Below the pieces are notes generated by a model. The model saw only the letters and a list, made by a program, of their open reading frames with translations, searched no databases and was not told where the DNA came from. From NCBI GenBank assembly GCA_001800245.1, contig MGVA01000033.1:1-64000 (forward strand): DNA of 64,000 nt, in the 5' to 3' direction. The DNA is from Elusimicrobia bacterium RIFOXYA12_FULL_51_18 (GTDB lineage Bacteria > Elusimicrobiota > Elusimicrobia > Elusimicrobiales > UBA9959). Shown here piece by piece: positions 6,211-51,436 of this stretch (its first letter is position 1; the number at the start of each line of letters is the position of its first letter). The position numbers and the translations under genes were made by a program.

Positions 6211-7917
6211 GTCCAGATAATCGCGCAGCATCTTGCTGCGCGAGGGGTGGCGGAGCTTCCTGATGGCTTTTGCTTCTATCTGGCGAACGCGTTCGCGGGT
6301 GACGCGGAAGATCTTGCCGACTTCTTCCAGGGTTCGGGGGTAGCCTGACTCTATGCCGAAGCGCAGTTTGATAATCTTGGCTTCCCTGTCGGTCAGAGTG
6401 TCCAGTATCTTCGTCACTTCCCGGCGCCTCAGAAGGTCCAGGGCGGAGTGGGAGGGCGGGAGGCCGCCTTTATCTTCTATGAAGTCTTCAAGGTGGGAAT
6501 CCTCGTCTTCGCCTATCGGGGTGGACAGCGAGATGGGATCCTGCATTATCTTGAAAGCGTTCTTGACCTTGTCCATGGAGATGTGGAGGTGCTTTGAGTA
6601 TTCCTCTATGGCGGGGTCGCGTCCGAATTCCTGCCGGTATTTTCTAGTGACCTTCATGAGTTTTGAAACAAGTTCCTTCATGTGGACCGGGATGCGGATG
6701 GTGCGCGCCTGGTCGGCTATGGCGCGGTTGATGGACTGGCGTATCCACCAGGTGGCATAGGTGGAGAATTTGAAGCCGCGCTTGTACTCGAATTTCTCCA
6801 CGGCCTTCATGAGCCCCAGACCGCCTTCCTGGATGAGATCGGAAAGCTCGAGATTCGAGTTTACGTGTTTTTTTGCAATGGACACTACCAGCCGCAGATT
6901 CGCCTTGATGAGCTTGAGCTTATCCTGAAGGATCTGATCTTCCAGGAAAGTGATCTTGTCGTTAAGCGTCATGAAGTCGTCCGGACTGATCGGGAGTGTG
7001 CGGATAAGATGTTTTTCGCGTTCTTTTATGGCCGCGATATTTTCCAGCGCCGCCTCTACTTCCGTGGGATTGTAACCCCATTTTGACCTGAAAGCTCCAG
7101 GATTCATGCGGTTCCTGCGCACCAATTCGTAGTCGGTCCTGAGTTTGTTCAGGTCTCCGTACTGTTTCTGGTATTTTTCCAGTTCCGTGCGGTATTCCTT
7201 GATCTTGTGGGCCAGGTTCTTTATTCTGTTAGTGAGGCGCTTTATTTTTTCCTGGTTAAGATTCAGGTTGATAATGGTTTTTACAATTTCTTTGCGCTTC
7301 CGGTCGATGATGCCGGCTATGTTCTTTTTCTGTTCGTTGGGCAGCTGGGGTTTGTTAAAGCGCTCAGTCAGTTTGGCTATCTCTTTTTCCGTCCTGGTGA
7401 TGAGGTGCGCCACATTTTTCATCTTTCGTTTCATGGCTGAAAGCTCGTGTGCGGATTTGCGTCCGCGGGGCATGAGCTCTTTGGTGGTCATCTCTTCCTG
7501 TTCGATCAGGGTTTCCCAGTTGCGGATCTCGCGCATGGTGATGGGGGATTCCAGGACCAGCATGCGGAGCTCTTTCTCGCGTTCGCGGGAATTACGGGCC
7601 AGCGTAACTTCCTCATCGCGGGTTAAAAGCGGGACTTTGCCCATCTCGGAGAGATACATCCGGATGGAATTTGAAACGTCCGGCGCGGCGCCCCATTCTT
7701 CGGTATATGCTTCCCGTTCCGCCGCCGCGACCATTTTAAACTTCTTTCGGTCCACTACCTCGATGCCGAGGTCCTCCAGCGTGCCCATGAGCGTGTCTAT
7801 TTCCTCGCTGGACATGGAGGCGTTGGTGAGCGAGCGGTTTATTTCTTCAAGCGTGATGTAACCGTGCTCCTTGCCGAGTTCCACTAGATCCCGTAAAGCT
7901 TTTCTTGCCTGTGCCAT
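6208..7917 (-). CDS. rpoD: RNA polymerase primary sigma factor (sigma-70)
   Basis: [53 protein letters not shown]; region 4.2 present; start at MAQARK with RBS aggaaggag. Confidence 0.97.
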
Positions 7918-45329: not shown

Positions 45330-46118
45330 ATGATCCCGGAAATTATTTTAATAATAGTATTTGTTTTTGGTCTTCTGATAGGCAGCTTCCTTAATGTCTG
45401 TATTTCCAGACTGCCGGAGAGTCTCTCCATCATCAGGCCCCGCTCACGCTGTCCCAAGTGTCTGACCCCAATAAGTTTTTACGATAATGTGCCGCTTGTG
45501 AGCTTTATTTTGTTGCGAGGACGCTGCCGGCACTGCGCAGCGCCTATTCCCTGGCGATATCCTGTTGTGGAGCTTGTAACGGCCCTGGTTACCGCGTTGC
45601 TGTTTTTTAAATGGGTTATGACACCGCTTTGGCTGTCCGCCGCTCTTGCGGCCGCCTATATCCTGATCGTTGTGGCATTCATAGATTTTGAGACCATGAT
45701 GATCGCCGATGTGTTTTCCTTCGTACTTGTCGGTCTGGGGGTGGTAGCCTGTTGGTTTAATCCATATTTTACCGGTCCGTTTTTAAATCGGCTATTTAGT
45801 TGCTTTATGGGCGCCATTTCCGGAACTTTCATCATTTGGCTTATGGCATGGCTTGGTACCAGAATATATAAGAAAGAAGCTGTCGGGGAGGGGGACATCT
45901 TTCTGATGGCCGGTATCGGAGCTTTGACCGGCTGGGAAGGCGTGGTCTCGGCTCTTATCATGGCCTCTTTTTTTGGCTCGGTTTATGGAGTCAGCCTGAT
46001 GTTGGCCAAAAAAGCTAGACGTTTTGACCATATCCCGTTCGGCCCCTTTCTGACGCTTGGAGCGGTGATAAATCTTTATCACCTTATCAGGATAACCGAT
46101 TTTTTTATGTGGTATTAG
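45330..46118 (+). CDS. pilD: Prepilin peptidase (A24)
   Basis: GSFLNVCISRLPES; RCPKC...CRHC; GEGDIFLMAGIGALTGW. Confidence 0.93.
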   Translation: MIPEIILIIVFVFGLLIGSFLNVCISRLPESLSIIRPRSRCPKCLTPISFYDNVPLVSFILLRGRCRHCAAPIPWRYPVVELVTALVTALLFFKWVMTPLWLSAALAAAYILIVVAFIDFETMMIADVFSFVLVGLGVVACWFNPYFTGPFLNRLFSCFMGAISGTFIIWLMAWLGTRIYKKEAVGEGDIFLMAGIGALTGWEGVVSALIMASFFGSVYGVSLMLAKKARRFDHIPFGPFLTLGAVINLYHLIRITDFFMWY

Positions 46119-46160
46119 CGCGGGGCGTAAAAAACAACCCCCGCCTTTGCGTGAAGTCAT

Positions 46161-46470
46161 AACCTTCTTCGCGCAACATCCTGCGGAAACTTTATAGAGA
46201 CCTTTTAACGTCGTTTTCCCTGGCATCCCCAGGGCTAGGGACCGCGAGAAGCCGTCGCGGGCGTAGCCACGATGCGCGGCCCCGCACCGTTCCTTGCCGC
46301 AGGAAGGTCGCAGGCGAGCCCACACGCCGGCCCATTGGTGGGCCGGCTCCGGGCTCGCTCTGCTCCAGCAGAAACGGCGTTGTTTATCATGGCCTCACCC
46401 CCTTCCCGTCCGCCATAGGCGGCCGGGTTTCGGCTTCGCCGTACAACCCGGAAAATTATTGCCCGCGCCC
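46161..46470 (-). repeat. Left copy of large structured inverted repeat flanking the accessory island
   Basis: rc shares gcgcggg(n)aataattttc, ggcggacggga, atgataaaca, tttctgctggagcagagcgagcccggagccggcc, ggccggcgtgtgggc, gatgttgcgcgaagaaggtt with 50601-50955. Confidence 0.85.
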
Positions 46471-46905
46471 ACTGCAAAGAGAAAGATCAAAACTACACCG
46501 GAATTATTTTATACGATTTTGCCCGCGCCGCCCGCAAATCTCGGCAAATTCAGGGCCAAAATTTGCCCCGGCATGGCCCTGTTCCTGTCAATGTTCAACA
46601 GTATTTATGCCGGTGGCCACAGGGTGAATAAAACACTGCCACGCCGCTACGCGCCCTGGCGGTCTTTTCTGTTAATGGTATGTAGCCACCGGCCAGAGGG
46701 AGAAACGGCAACAGCAAGGAAGCTAAGGCCAGGACAGCCCGGACAAGCCGTGCAGCCCCGGCCTTAGCCGCCTTATCTGGTCCCGCCCTCTCATGATACA
46801 GCATGTTGACCCATAAATTAGCCAAAAACAGTCTTTCCCAACACGACACAAGGCTGTCGCGGTGGTCTGCTATACTTTTAGTAAGAAATAAGAAAGAAAT
46901 AACCA

Positions 46906-46934
46906 TTGACCATAAACTGGCAAAGCAATAGAAT
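46906..46934 (+). promoter_or_regulatory. Putative sigma-70 promoter for island genes
   Basis: TTGACC - 17 nt - TAGAAT, about 50 nt before the HTH gene. Confidence 0.5.
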
Positions 46935-46982
46935 ATGGACTAATAGGGATTGGCGGGAATTCACCAAACCAGGAGTTTGTCA

Positions 46983-47156
46983 ATGGAAGATATAGCTAAA
47001 TATCTAACTGTCCGTCAGGTTGCAAAGAAACTCGGGATTAGCGAGGAATGGGTCAGAGATTTAATTGCTAGAAAAGAAATCAAAGCTGTGAAAATTGGGC
47101 AATGGAAAATTAGCCAAGAGGCTTTAGACCAATTTATCAAATCTCGAAGCAATTAA
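46983..47156 (+). CDS. Excisionase-type helix-turn-helix protein
   Basis: YLTVRQVAKKLGISEEWVRDLIARKEIKAVKIGQWKISQEALDQFIKSR. Confidence 0.85.
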   Translation: MEDIAKYLTVRQVAKKLGISEEWVRDLIARKEIKAVKIGQWKISQEALDQFIKSRSN

Positions 47157-47161
47157 AAAAT

Positions 47162-47768
47162 ATGAACAGCAGCCCCAAAACCTTAGAAGAAGCCTTAATG
47201 TGGAGTGCAGGGCCGACTGACAAGGAAAAAGCTATTTTTTCCGCGATGCTTAAAATAGAAGCAACGCTTCTGAGTGCCACCACAAAAGATGTCTATGTTA
47301 AAATGCGGACTTTTGTTATAGCGCTACACGCGATAATAGAAAGATTGCTAAATCATTTATTGAAGGAATTAAGCCTGTCTTGTGGGGAAGAAGCAAACTT
47401 CAGTTGCAAAATATGTAAACTTGAAAATTACTTTAAGCCCAGCACGCTAAAACACTTGAGGAAGATTAATCAGTTTAGAAACGGATTTGCACATTTATAT
47501 CCTCAGCGCCATAAAAAGTTTAACAATCTGCCAGAAATCCCCGGGCTTTCAAGCCCGGGGATGAATGGCAGCCCGGAGCGACGCGGAGGCCATTTTCGCA
47601 TAGCGGCTATGCGAGAGGTCTGAAACCCTGGCCTTTAGGCCGGGGAGTGGGTTCATTTTTAATGGCGGGACAGTGTTTGATAGTGGCTCCATAACTCAAC
47701 TGTTTAATCAATTTATGGAAATATCTGATGACCACACAAACATTCTGCGTTTGAAGACACAGAAATAA
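47162..47768 (+). pseudogene. HEPN-like protein gene interrupted by a ~118-bp insertion
   Basis: INQFRNGFAHLYPQRHKKFNNLPE then insertion and stop; reading resumes in another frame FNGGTVFDSGSITQLFNQFMEISDDHTNILRLKTQK* ending 47768. Confidence 0.6.
47538..47655 (+). mobile_element. IS200/IS605-type right-end / omega-RNA-like remnant (MITE-like)
   Basis: aatccccgggctt-tc-aagcccggggatgaatggcagcccgg...gtctgaaaccctggcctttaggccggggagtgggttca. Confidence 0.55.
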
Positions 47769-47790
47769 AAATATCACTATCGCAATTGTT

Positions 47791-48522
47791 ATGATAAACG
47801 AAAAACCCCGAGAACCTTTGCCGAAAGATTTTGGACTTACTGATGCGGGAATAAAAAAGCTCGAAAAGACTTCGGGATGGATACGCGGGTTTGTCGCAAT
47901 GCTCCCCGGCGTGTTGCTGTTATTCAAGTTCGGGGCTCCTTCCGACCCTTCCGATTTAACATTAGGCACCACGTTGATACTTGGTTTTATCATTGTGTTT
48001 GTGCTGTCTCCTCTCGCTTATACGATAGTTGAGCAGATAATAGTTCGATGGTGGCCAATTGTTACGCCCTTTTGGTTGTTTTGGCACCCGGATTATTCAA
48101 AATATAAACAATACCAACTGGCCCAAAAGCGATATAAAAACGACTATGATGAATGGCTGAAAACCCAATTGTCTTGGTGGCAGAGATTAAGCGGTCAAAG
48201 ATTTGAGCAGGAAATCGGGGCGGTGTTTGAAAAACGCGGCTATCAAGTATATTTGCAGGGGAAATCCGGGGATGGCGGGGTTGACCTTATTATTTCAAAA
48301 GGCTCCCAAAGAATAATCGTTCAATGTAAAGCGCATAAAAATCCGATAGGCCCGCATGTCGTCAGAGATTTATATGGAGCCCTCACTCATAATAAAGCCC
48401 GGAAAGCCTGGATTGTCTCGGTTTCACGATTTACCAAAGGCTCATGGGAATTCGCCGTAAATAAGCCGATTCGTCTTATTACGATAGAAGATATCCTCAC
48501 AGAGAGATTTATTGTTTCATAG
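47791..48522 (+). CDS. Membrane-anchored Mrr-like restriction endonuclease
   Basis: Two hydrophobic segments then RFEQEIGAVFEKRGYQVYLQGKSGDGGVDLIISKGSQRIIVQCKAHKNPIGPHVVRDLYGAL. Confidence 0.85.
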   Translation: MINEKPREPLPKDFGLTDAGIKKLEKTSGWIRGFVAMLPGVLLLFKFGAPSDPSDLTLGTTLILGFIIVFVLSPLAYTIVEQIIVRWWPIVTPFWLFWHPDYSKYKQYQLAQKRYKNDYDEWLKTQLSWWQRLSGQRFEQEIGAVFEKRGYQVYLQGKSGDGGVDLIISKGSQRIIVQCKAHKNPIGPHVVRDLYGALTHNKARKAWIVSVSRFTKGSWEFAVNKPIRLITIEDILTERFIVS

Positions 48523-48612
48523 GCAAGATGGAGACAATGCATCTACAACTAATAATTAAAATCAGATGGTTAAGTTTTTTGAAATTTAGCGCGGCACTTT
48601 TCTGGGGATAAG

Positions 48613-49503
48613 ATGAGCGAATTAACCAATTTTCTCGATAATCGGTATCCGGCACGTTTATCGGATCGTCTGCTGATTATCGCTGACATTGAAAAGATAT
48701 GGGGAGAATTCAAACCCTATGCGGAGACCACTTGCCTAACAGAATTTACCAGTGGTGACGAGGATAAATTCCGACAGCGGTATTGGGAAATACTTCTTGG
48801 TTCCTACCTCTTACGAGCGGGTCTGAAGCTTTCACCTCCCTCCAAAGCCGGAGGCCCAGACTTTAGAATAGAACATAATGGGCGTGTAATATGGGTTGAG
48901 GCAATTGCGCCTGGTCGTGGTATAAAGAACAATCAAGTGCCGGACATTGTTCCGAGCCCTGGCCCAGCGAACAAAGTCCCCTCGGATAAGATTCTGCTCC
49001 GCTATACAACTGCAATCGACACAAAATTTAAGAAGTATGTGAGCTATTTGGACAACAAAATTGTTAAGCCAAGCGAAGTATTTATTATTGCCGTAAATTA
49101 TTCCCAATCCAGATGTTTCAGTTTTAAAGGTAAATCAACTTACCCGGCAATACTTCAAGCCGTTTATCCTATAGGGGATCTAAAATTACACAAGGATGGT
49201 TCTCAGAGCATCACATATAGGGATAAAATTGTTAATGAGAACCAGGCTGAGATAGATACTGCTTTTTTTCTTAACCTGCGGCATTCAGGTATCACAGCTG
49301 TTTTATCTACAAGCCGTGATGAATATCATATATGTAATAAACCCCCGACACCAATAATCCTGGTGCCCAATAAACTGGCCGCAAACCCATTACGTCCATC
49401 GCCCATTAAAGTTGATTGTGAATATCGGCTTGAGGATATTCCTAATGGATATAGACTTTGCTGTTCGGCCCCATCCAGTCAGTTGGAGGCCCTTTGGGAA
49501 TAA
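48613..49503 (+). CDS. Hypothetical protein, possible PD-(D/E)XK-like nuclease
   Basis: SKAGGPDFRIEHNGRVIWVEAIAPGRG resembles D...ExxA nuclease core. Confidence 0.5.
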   Translation: MSELTNFLDNRYPARLSDRLLIIADIEKIWGEFKPYAETTCLTEFTSGDEDKFRQRYWEILLGSYLLRAGLKLSPPSKAGGPDFRIEHNGRVIWVEAIAPGRGIKNNQVPDIVPSPGPANKVPSDKILLRYTTAIDTKFKKYVSYLDNKIVKPSEVFIIAVNYSQSRCFSFKGKSTYPAILQAVYPIGDLKLHKDGSQSITYRDKIVNENQAEIDTAFFLNLRHSGITAVLSTSRDEYHICNKPPTPIILVPNKLAANPLRPSPIKVDCEYRLEDIPNGYRLCCSAPSSQLEALWE

Positions 49504-49515
49504 AGGCGTGATTAT

Positions 49516-50538
49516 ATGAATAAATCCGAAATCATAATTTATAACACCGAAGACGGGAAAAGCCGGATACAGGTGCGGCTTGAGGACGGCACGGTGTGGC
49601 TCTCGCAAAAACTTATTGCCGAACTCTTCCAGGTTGCCGTCCATACTGTAAATGAGCATATTAAAAATATCTATGCCGAGGGCGAGGTCCCCAATGAGGC
49701 AACTATTCGGAATTTCCGAATAGTTCAAAAAGAAGGCTCAAGGGAAGTGGCCAGGGATGTTGAATTTTACAATCTGGACCTGATTATGGCGGTTGGCTAT
49801 AGGGTGCGTTCTGAAAGAGGCATTCAGTTCCGCAGGTGGGCCACGGAAAGACTTAAAGAATACATCGTTAAGGGATTCGTCATTGATAATGAGAGGCTTA
49901 AGGAGCCCGGCGGCCTTGATTATTTTGACGATCTGCTTGAGCAGATTCGCGATATCCGTGCCTCTGAAAAACGGTTTTATCAGAAAATACGGGATATTTA
50001 CAAACTTTCAATAGATTACAGGCCGGATGCAGAGGAAACGCATGAATTTTTTCAGATAGTTCAAAACAAACTGCATTGGGCGGTTGCCGGGCATACCGCC
50101 GCCGAAATAATTCATGGCCGGGCAAACGCTAATAAGCCCAATATGGGCTTAACGAGCTGGAAAGGTTCAAAGGTCCGTCGTGGTGATGTTACTGTGGCCA
50201 AAAATTATCTTGTCGGGGATGAGATAAAACAACTTAATAAAATTGTCAACATGTATCTTGATTATGCGGAAGAGCAGGCCCGCCGCCGCAAGGTGCTTTA
50301 TATGAAGGATTGGCGCGAGAAGTTGGACGGTTTCCTAAAATTCCATGAGCACGAAATATTAAAAGACGCCGGCAGAGTTTCGATGGAGGTTGCTCAAAAT
50401 CTGGCGCTTGCAGAATACGACAAATTCAATGCCCACCGGATTGCCTTGGAGGCTGACGCGGAAAATGAGCTTGAGAAACAGGTTAAGCGGATTGAACACA
50501 AATCCAGAAAGCCCAAGAAAAAAGGCAACGAGGATTAG
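49516..50538 (+). CDS. rhuM: RhuM family protein
   Basis: VWLSQKLIAELFQVAVHTVNEHIKNIYAEGE...YNLDLIMAVGYRVRSERGIQFRRWATERLKEYIVKGFVIDNERLK. Confidence 0.88.
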   Translation: MNKSEIIIYNTEDGKSRIQVRLEDGTVWLSQKLIAELFQVAVHTVNEHIKNIYAEGEVPNEATIRNFRIVQKEGSREVARDVEFYNLDLIMAVGYRVRSERGIQFRRWATERLKEYIVKGFVIDNERLKEPGGLDYFDDLLEQIRDIRASEKRFYQKIRDIYKLSIDYRPDAEETHEFFQIVQNKLHWAVAGHTAAEIIHGRANANKPNMGLTSWKGSKVRRGDVTVAKNYLVGDEIKQLNKIVNMYLDYAEEQARRRKVLYMKDWREKLDGFLKFHEHEILKDAGRVSMEVAQNLALAEYDKFNAHRIALEADAENELEKQVKRIEHKSRKPKKKGNED

Positions 50539-50600
50539 AAATTTATTATTTGACGAAAACTTGAGTAGTATGGCAGGACCTTATAACGAATAAGATTGAT

Positions 50601-50955
50601 GCGCGCGGGAAATAATTTTCTGCGTTGGCCGCTTGAGGCGCATAGCGCTTGTTGCGGCACGGGCACAGCCCAGTACGGACGCCGAAGGCGGACGGGAGCG
50701 GCCAGCAGGCCGCGCATAAGGAGGTGATGAGTATGATAAACACCTCTTTTCTGCTGGAGCAGAGCGAGCCCGGAGCCGGCCGCCAAAAGCGGCCGGCGTG
50801 TGGGCGAGCCTGCGAACTTCCTTGCGGCAAGCGTGGGAGGCCGCGCGGCGTGGCCGACCGCGCGACATCCCGCGGATAGGCTTCCCCGGACCGCAGATCC
50901 AGGGGGAAAGCGGAATCTATATAGTTTCCTCGGGATGTTTTGCGCGAAGAAGGTT
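50601..50955 (+). repeat. Right copy of large structured inverted repeat flanking the accessory island
   Basis: Inverted, diverged homolog of 46161-46470; contains SD-like aaggaggtga before ATGATAAAC. Confidence 0.85.
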
Positions 50956-50980
50956 CGAACTTTATCCTGAAAGCTCCGGA

Positions 50981-51018
50981 TTTAAAAAGCCCGACTAAAT
51001 TTAGTCGGGCTTTTTAAA
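50981..51018. terminator. Bidirectional intrinsic terminator
   Basis: tttaaaaagcccgactaaa / tttagtcgggctttttaaa, perfect 38-bp palindrome. Confidence 0.9.
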
Positions 51019-51021
51019 TAC

Positions 51022-51108
51022 GGAGAGGGAGGGATTCGAACCCTCGAAGCACTTTTGGCGCTTACAGACTTTCCAGGTCTGCGCCTTCAACCACTCGGCC
51101 ACCTCTCC
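51022..51108 (-). tRNA. tRNA-Ser (GGA)
   Basis: GGAGAGGTGGCCGAGTGGTTGAAGGCGCAGACCTGGAAAGTCTG...GGTTCGAATCCCTCCCTCTCC. Confidence 0.95.
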
Positions 51109-51109
51109 A

Positions 51110-51204
51110 CTTGTCGCACCCCGCGCTAAACACATGCGCGGGGCGGATTACGCCGGGCTTTATAAGGTGACGCCCGGTGCTCCACAAGGAGGGCTCTGCC
51201 CTCC
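51110..51204. repeat. 95-bp direct repeat, copy 1
   Basis: 93/95 identical to 51302-51396 by eye. Confidence 0.95.
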
Positions 51205-51301
51205 GTTTCATCGTCGCTTACTCCCTGCGCTTCGCTTGGTCGTTACGCTGAACCTCCCGGAGTGGAAATCTCTTTAATAAAATTGTATCCATTTCTTCAT
51301 G

Positions 51302-51396
51302 CTTGTCGGACCCCGCGCTAAACACATGCGCGGGGCGGATTACGCCGGGCTTTATAAGGTGACGCCCGGTGCTTCACAAGGAGGGCTCTGCCCTCC
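51302..51396. repeat. 95-bp direct repeat, copy 2
   Basis: Differs from copy 1 at two positions. Confidence 0.95.
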
Positions 51397-51436
51397 ATTC
51401 AACCGGCACTTGCTTCCCATCTTTGCAAAATCATAT

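Follow-up and report, generated by a model that had tools for sequence, protein, structure and literature searches.

The window analysed here is a stretch of 64,000 nucleotides (contig MGVA01000033.1, positions 1 to 64,000, assembly GCA_001800245.1) from Elusimicrobia bacterium RIFOXYA12_FULL_51_18. It contains an island of five genes enclosed by two outward-facing inverted repeats, referred to below as arms. Next to the island lies a gene for a transfer RNA (tRNA), tRNA-Ser(gga), a key neighbour overlooked in an earlier sequence-only reading of this DNA. The arms are, with high confidence, the inverted repeats of integrative genomic islands that carry phage-type attachment sites (attP) and are driven by a tRNA-targeting large serine recombinase (LSR), the window copy being a degenerate chimera. 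The features of the locus are listed below by window coordinates, strand, and basis of assignment.

45330-46118, plus: pilD-type prepilin peptidase, conserved left neighbour of the site (Pfam, comparison of relatives)
46154-46480, minus: left arm, inner edge at 46471, outer tip toward pilD, type-B tip GGTTATGACTTCACGCAAA (repeat search, alignment)
46158-46165, minus: T-loop-like (zinc-ribbon) motif GGTTATGA, putative left attP half-site (sequence; spacing set on sister elements)
46950-47156, plus: helix-turn-helix protein, HTH_17 (Pfam, E-value 2.4e-15)
47162-47623, plus: open reading frame of 153 amino acids, no family match (Pfam, PADLOC)
47791-48522, plus: Mrr_cat restriction endonuclease with N-terminal hydrophobic segments (Pfam, E-value 2.4e-29)
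48613-49503, plus: protein of 296 amino acids, weakly similar to defence proteins PD-T7-1/PD-T7-5 (PADLOC, E-value 6e-9)
49516-50538, plus: RhuM-family protein, Virulence_RhuM (Pfam, E-value 1e-115)
50598-50965, plus: right arm, inner edge on the left, outer tip toward tRNA-Ser (repeat search, alignment)
50628-50672, plus: 45-bp hairpin insertion within the right arm, resembling a repetitive extragenic palindrome (dispersed separately in the genome)
50952-50959, plus: T-loop-like (zinc-ribbon) motif GGTTCGAA, putative right attP half-site (sequence)
50973-50978, plus: tRNA-Ser-like core GCTCCG attached to the arm tip (sequence)
50974-51025, no strand: palindromic terminator between inverted tRNA-Ser 3'-end cores, where sister elements have the LSR unit
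51020-51109, minus: tRNA-Ser(gga), presumed target gene (the LSR remnant of genome G002 joins the same tRNA)

The inverted repeats of the window are far beyond chance. A mechanical search recovered them where the sequence-only reading had placed them, in four blocks that are 86-100% identical. The best paired block covers 34 nt (46341-46374/50748-50781, 100%), followed by one of 32 nt (46301-46332/50791-50822, 91%), one at the outer edge (46154-46176/50940-50962, 87%), and one at the inner edge (46444-46471/50600-50627, 86%). Further blocks are collinear with the perfectly complementary 34-nt block, and alignment over the full length gives an identity of 71-77%. The two arms come from different lineages: the nearest relative of the right arm is G001C20, and the left arm is nearest, close to its tip, to G005C36_L and G013C19_L2 (84-88% identical). 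The 45-bp segment of the right arm is missing from most other arm copies, in which query position 30 is joined straight to position 76. Solitary copies of this hairpin repeat, GCCGCTTGAGGCGCATAGCGCTTGTTGCGGC, occur about 15 times in the genome, as well as in many relatives. The arms as a whole were also considered as ubiquitous genome repeats, and this was rejected: only the 45-bp insert (query 28-78) is ubiquitous, and true arms occur in small numbers in any one genome and are associated with an LSR or with cargo.

Pfam supports three of the cargo assignments made by the sequence-only reading, namely the helix-turn-helix protein, the Mrr-like endonuclease, and RhuM. The reading frame described there as HEPN-like found no counterpart in Pfam or PADLOC, and the possible nuclease at 48613-49503 gave only the weak PADLOC matches to PD-T7-1/PD-T7-5. 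The downstream part of the 153-amino-acid frame has apparently been split off by a hairpin-rich insertion at about 47528-47660. This insert has no Rfam match and ends in CCTTTAGGCCGGGGAGTGGGTTCAT, which we take to resemble an IS605-type right end; an open frame follows it. No recombinase was found within the window island, which is why the earlier reading saw none.

Arm matches are present in 17 of the 41 genomes searched, all belonging to one family, and were not found in any of the 16 genomes from a second family of the order. The proposal of a mobile, defence-type cassette between dispersed inverted repeats holds up in these relatives, since sister cassettes carry the same repeats. The search for other such cassettes that had been suggested yielded outward arm pairs around unrelated cargo, for example at G000:C26, G017:C107, G001:C141, G024:C5, G013:C19, and G014:C31. 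Sister cargo is often defensive, including a C5 methylase with an NgoFVII-type nuclease, an EcoRI-type methylase with a GmrSD-domain nuclease and LmuB, an AlwI nuclease with Mrr, a CD-NTase with patatin (CBASS), and PbeA. Giant repeat-rich proteins and response regulators are found as well. In the 24 cargos sampled, no gene other than the LSR forms a backbone common to all arm-bounded units; Fic and small helix-turn-helix proteins each occur in 8. A Fic-family gene often lies just inside the inner edge of an arm (L044 3489-4604, L146 3484-4602, L148 3494-4609, L056 2751-3866, and others). The arms themselves are mosaic in sequence. Neither outcome that the sequence-only reading had named as speaking against it was seen: the repeats are not ubiquitous without a link to gene gain, and the five genes are not at this locus in all relatives.

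The sister arms adjoin an LSR of about 510 amino acids with Resolvase, Recombinase, and Zn_ribbon_recom domains, a protein found in sister elements and not in the window copy. In a second batch of units, the LSR gene runs into the 3' end of an opposite-strand tRNA gene in 20 of 20 cases, the targets being tRNA-Asp, tRNA-Glu (ctc and ttc), tRNA-His, and tRNA-Ser (gga, cga, tga, and gct). An arm lies upstream of the LSR in 18 of the 19 units of this batch that have room upstream. Of the family genomes with true arms, 10 of 12 also contain a close LSR relative; of those lacking such arms, 0 of 13 do (p=2e-5, not corrected for phylogeny). The genome of the window has an LSR at tRNA-Glu (G000:C28) and an LSR fragment at tRNA-Ser(gct) (G000:C2). 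The relevant recombinase is absent from the window copy, as the sequence-only reading had it, and nevertheless present in the same genome and beside most sister arms. The LSRs of different units differ by 20-40%; the nearest phage LSRs in the collection searched are 29-31% identical, and plasmid LSRs are at most 33% identical.

The junctions of these units indicate where the recombinase acts. Every LSR lies between two inverted copies of its gene's 3' end. Most of these pairs are 95-150 bp long and 91-100% identical, and both copies start at tRNA 3'-end sequence, as in the tRNA-Asp example ACCCCGCCA. The tip of the far-side arm reads ..GGATGTTGCGCAAAGTAGGTTCGAACTTCATCCTGAAA. The tRNA T-loop motif (GGTTCGAA in the window) is also present at the outer tip of the arm, where its distance from the crossover is exactly 5 bp greater than in the tRNA. 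When arm and tRNA are aligned on the core, the best match to GGTTCRAAY in the arm is displaced outward by exactly 5 bp relative to the tRNA in 12 of 16 units. According to PMC3783163, the zinc-ribbon motif recognised by the A118 integrase is likewise set 5 bp farther away from the crossover in attP than in the bacterial attachment site (attB). Because the arm motif is shifted in the same way, the unit formed by arm, core, and inverted repeat is assigned as attP and the tRNA 3' end as attB; on this spacing, the outer tip of the arm is an attP half-site. The zinc-ribbon domain of the LSR probably reads the T-loop sequence GGTTCRAA, and such recognition would be the reason why one LSR family uses several tRNA targets.

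One complete element can be compared with its empty site. The 24-kb element of G024:C5 runs from tRNA-Asp through core, LSR, core, arm, 22 kb of further DNA, arm, and core into the downstream sequence. The corresponding empty site in G043:C120 reads tRNA-Asp - ACCCCGCCAAATTTTTGAGTCCCGGAATTTGGCA - TACGAAAAGCTCC, and its sequence is found at both ends of the G024 element, the right copy with a few changes. The empty site thereby accounts for both junctions, attB having given rise to the left and right attachment sites (attL and attR). Other complete elements are G059:C42 at tRNA-His (arms 97% identical), G060:C27 at tRNA-Ser (99%), and G048:C84 (81%); arm pairs in complete elements are generally 95-100% identical. 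In each complete element the attP region, consisting of arm, core, and LSR 3' end, is present twice in inverted orientation (G024, G059, G060, G214, and G121). Consequently, the LSR and the cargo each lie between inverted repeats in this doubled-attP layout, and integrated copies retain one whole attP internally. At L077 (G022:C14), the non-coding copy is joined to the tRNA and the LSR points away. This is a possible product of the use of the other attP, and misassembly at the repeat is possible too. L157 was examined as proof that the internal attP is used and was discarded, its two sides belonging to different LSR lineages. As a separate observation, tRNA-Asp and its promoter are flipped with respect to the sequence on either side in G017, G041, and G049 (L111, L114, L115) compared with G024, G043, and G046 (L109, L047).

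LSRs that are 38-62% identical, in other families of the phylum, show the same layout with unrelated arm sequence. In G214 (L169), the inverted repeats at the LSR (133 bp) and the arms (165 bp) are all 100% identical, and in G121 (L173) inverted repeats and arms of 102 and 103 bp are 99-100% identical. G125 has inverted repeats of 133 bp (100%) and 117 bp (97%), and its contigs show no second arm. The 5-bp shift recurs at three loci of other families (L169, L170, and L171), being visible in G214 and at both G125 loci. Inverted repeats are absent at tRNA-adjacent LSRs of about 29-36% identity. As the layout accompanies LSRs of 38-62% identity and is missing at about 29-36%, the sequences place the doubled attP as an inherited feature of one LSR clade. 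The LSR relative of G121 has changed its target: in place of a tRNA it occupies the 3' part of a HIT-like gene (L173 640-900). Contig G008:C202 (L175) has the same 141-bp sequence inverted at both ends (1-141 and 7011-7151) and contains an LSR (38%) between them.

Relatives also throw light on the window copy itself, and several of them have no island at this locus, in agreement with the empty site that the sequence-only reading had proposed to look for. In G014 and G004, pilD is followed directly by tRNA-Ser, and in G008 the two are separated by 1.5 kb without an arm. In G002, the same tRNA-Ser adjoins a scar of an LSR 3' end, and the place of the island between pilD and tRNA-Ser is taken by a D-Ala-D-Ala ligase gene, ddl (L084 3365-4414). 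In G005, which belongs to another genus, the corresponding position beside pilD holds a left arm joined to a tRNA-Ser-like core. Compared with the 95-100% arm identity of complete sisters, the two window arms reach only 71-74% in the comparison of arm lineages. Since they are unlike each other and belong to different lineages, and since no LSR is left, the window copy is most likely a degenerate chimera or a remnant of two elements, as judged from these comparisons. The suggestion that the island is composite is therefore borne out in part: the arms derive from two element lineages, and the repeats are not transposon ends but flank LSR attachment sites. Direct attachment-site repeats were not found at the two ends of the window island, whose junctions are not clean when set against the island-free sites; for lack of such repeats the window copy is classed as a remnant or chimera and not as an intact member.

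A different account of the same locus is that the arms are simply dispersed repeats and that the island arose by homologous recombination between them, with no site-specific integration at this site. The different lineages of the window arms, the absence of an LSR and of direct attachment-site repeats, and the mosaic nature of the arms all fit this account. However, it leaves aside the left arm of G005 at the same place by pilD in another genus with a tRNA-Ser-like core, the tRNA-like core at the tip of the right window arm, and the LSR scar of G002 at the same tRNA-Ser. As a complete explanation it is possible and rather unlikely, though recombination between arms may well have been what finally shaped the window copy, after earlier integrations.

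Several observations weigh against LSR-driven integration. An LSR is missing from the window copy, the identity of its arms is only 71-77%, and no tRNA-like core is found at its left junction; on its own, this copy therefore cannot be shown to have arisen by LSR integration. The right end of the copy reads GCTCCG-terminator-ACGGAG, and we could derive no simple reaction that places a terminator between two inverted cores. Elsewhere, the arms of G048:C84 (81% identical) and G013:C19 (dissimilar) depart from the usual similarity, and no circle or excision was seen. Many contigs end inside the inverted repeats, so that claims based on a single orientation could be assembly effects. The order of core, palindromic terminator, and inverted core between arm and tRNA is also found at tRNA-Glu in G005:C31 (L054 7640-7720). 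On the far side of the tRNA, a 116-bp repeat (91% identical) at 51110-51225 and 51302-51417 flanks the gap that separates tRNA-Ser from tRNA-Tyr, and similar sequence occurs near tRNAs of other genomes.

Two further explanations concern the nature of the arms. They could encode a structured RNA or a short peptide as the functional unit, given their GC-rich hairpins and, in some arms, a Shine-Dalgarno-like GGAGGTGATG followed by ATG. This is improbable and both forms were rejected: the consensus fold has an unfavourable covariation term (+0.82) with two-sided changes in only 4 of 37 pairs, the arms have no Rfam match (the search of the window gave only tRNAs), the reading frames differ between the two window arms, and, the tip apart, other families have arms of unrelated sequence. 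Least probable of all is a composite or passively mobilised transposon cassette, with the arms as terminal inverted repeats and a transposase acting in trans, which would suit the long inverted repeats, the variable cargo, and the lack of a recombinase between the arms, but was rejected because the arms abut tRNA 3'-end cores and LSR ends at their tips, not random sites with short target duplications, no gene is common to all cargos, and the complete element compared with its empty site has site-specific attL/attR without target duplication. No transposase with a short target-site duplication was found, transposases not having been searched exhaustively in every cargo.

For LSR-driven integration, the following course can be proposed. 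After excision, we infer, the element would form a circle in which attP (arm, core, LSR 3' end) occurs twice, in opposite orientations; these copies would separate the cargo from the body of the LSR gene, whose coding end would lie within one of them. The LSR, if active, would join one attP, possibly either of the two, to the 3' end of a tRNA gene serving as attB. The integrated layout would then be tRNA - core - IR' - LSR - IR - core - arm - cargo - arm - core - downstream DNA (IR, inverted repeat), and one whole attP would remain inside the element. In the window copy the LSR is gone, presumably lost, and two unlike arms bracket five genes beside tRNA-Ser(gga). A bolder and doubtful extension is that the excised circle is a prokaryotic counterpart of the yeast 2-micron plasmid, in which exchange between the inverted attP copies flips the LSR half relative to the cargo half. 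If this were true, inversion would let the element integrate either way round, and the circle might be amplified before it integrated again; defence cassettes would then have a general means of moving from one tRNA gene to another throughout a bacterial phylum.

Together, these elements form a family that carries anti-phage genes within a bacterial phylum. Reading of the T-loop, which nearly all tRNAs share, would probably explain the use of several tRNA genes by one recombinase family. LSRs are of interest as tools for genome insertion, and those described here combine a near-universal target motif with attP/attB pairs that can be read from genomes. The doubled inverted attP also gives testable predictions on inversion and copy number.

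Among known systems, the staphylococcal cassette chromosome (SCC) uses large serine recombinases to insert variable cargo, often for defence or resistance, at the 3' end of a conserved gene. The present elements share these traits, except that the SCC target is rlmH (orfX) and not a tRNA; we know of no duplicated attP arms of several hundred bp in SCC. The yeast 2-micron plasmid is a circle split by two inverted repeats that hold recombination sites, and its recombinase gene enters one repeat; it uses the tyrosine recombinase Flp and normally does not integrate. The likeness is one of layout only, with a circle that is presumed here and an LSR in place of Flp, and no homology is claimed. Islands at tRNA genes are usually tyrosine-integrase elements (PMC10654092), and PMC4383910 describes Islander-type islands as typically having tyrosine integrases. 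Such islands resemble the present elements in insertion at the tRNA 3' end, the restored tRNA end, the displaced core copy at the far end, and the variable cargo; unlike them, an LSR acts here and attP is duplicated in inverted orientation. Serine-integrase elements of the phage A118 type (PMC3783163, PDB 4kis) are alike in domain architecture and in the motif lying 5 bp further out in attP than in attB. They have one attP, in contrast to the two inverted attP regions that divide the element here, and serine integrases normally do not recombine attP with attP (PMC3783163). No description of a duplicated inverted attP was found in the literature searched, whose incomplete coverage makes this weak evidence. 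Islands at tRNA genes and serine integrases are thus already known, and the duplicated inverted attP is the new part.

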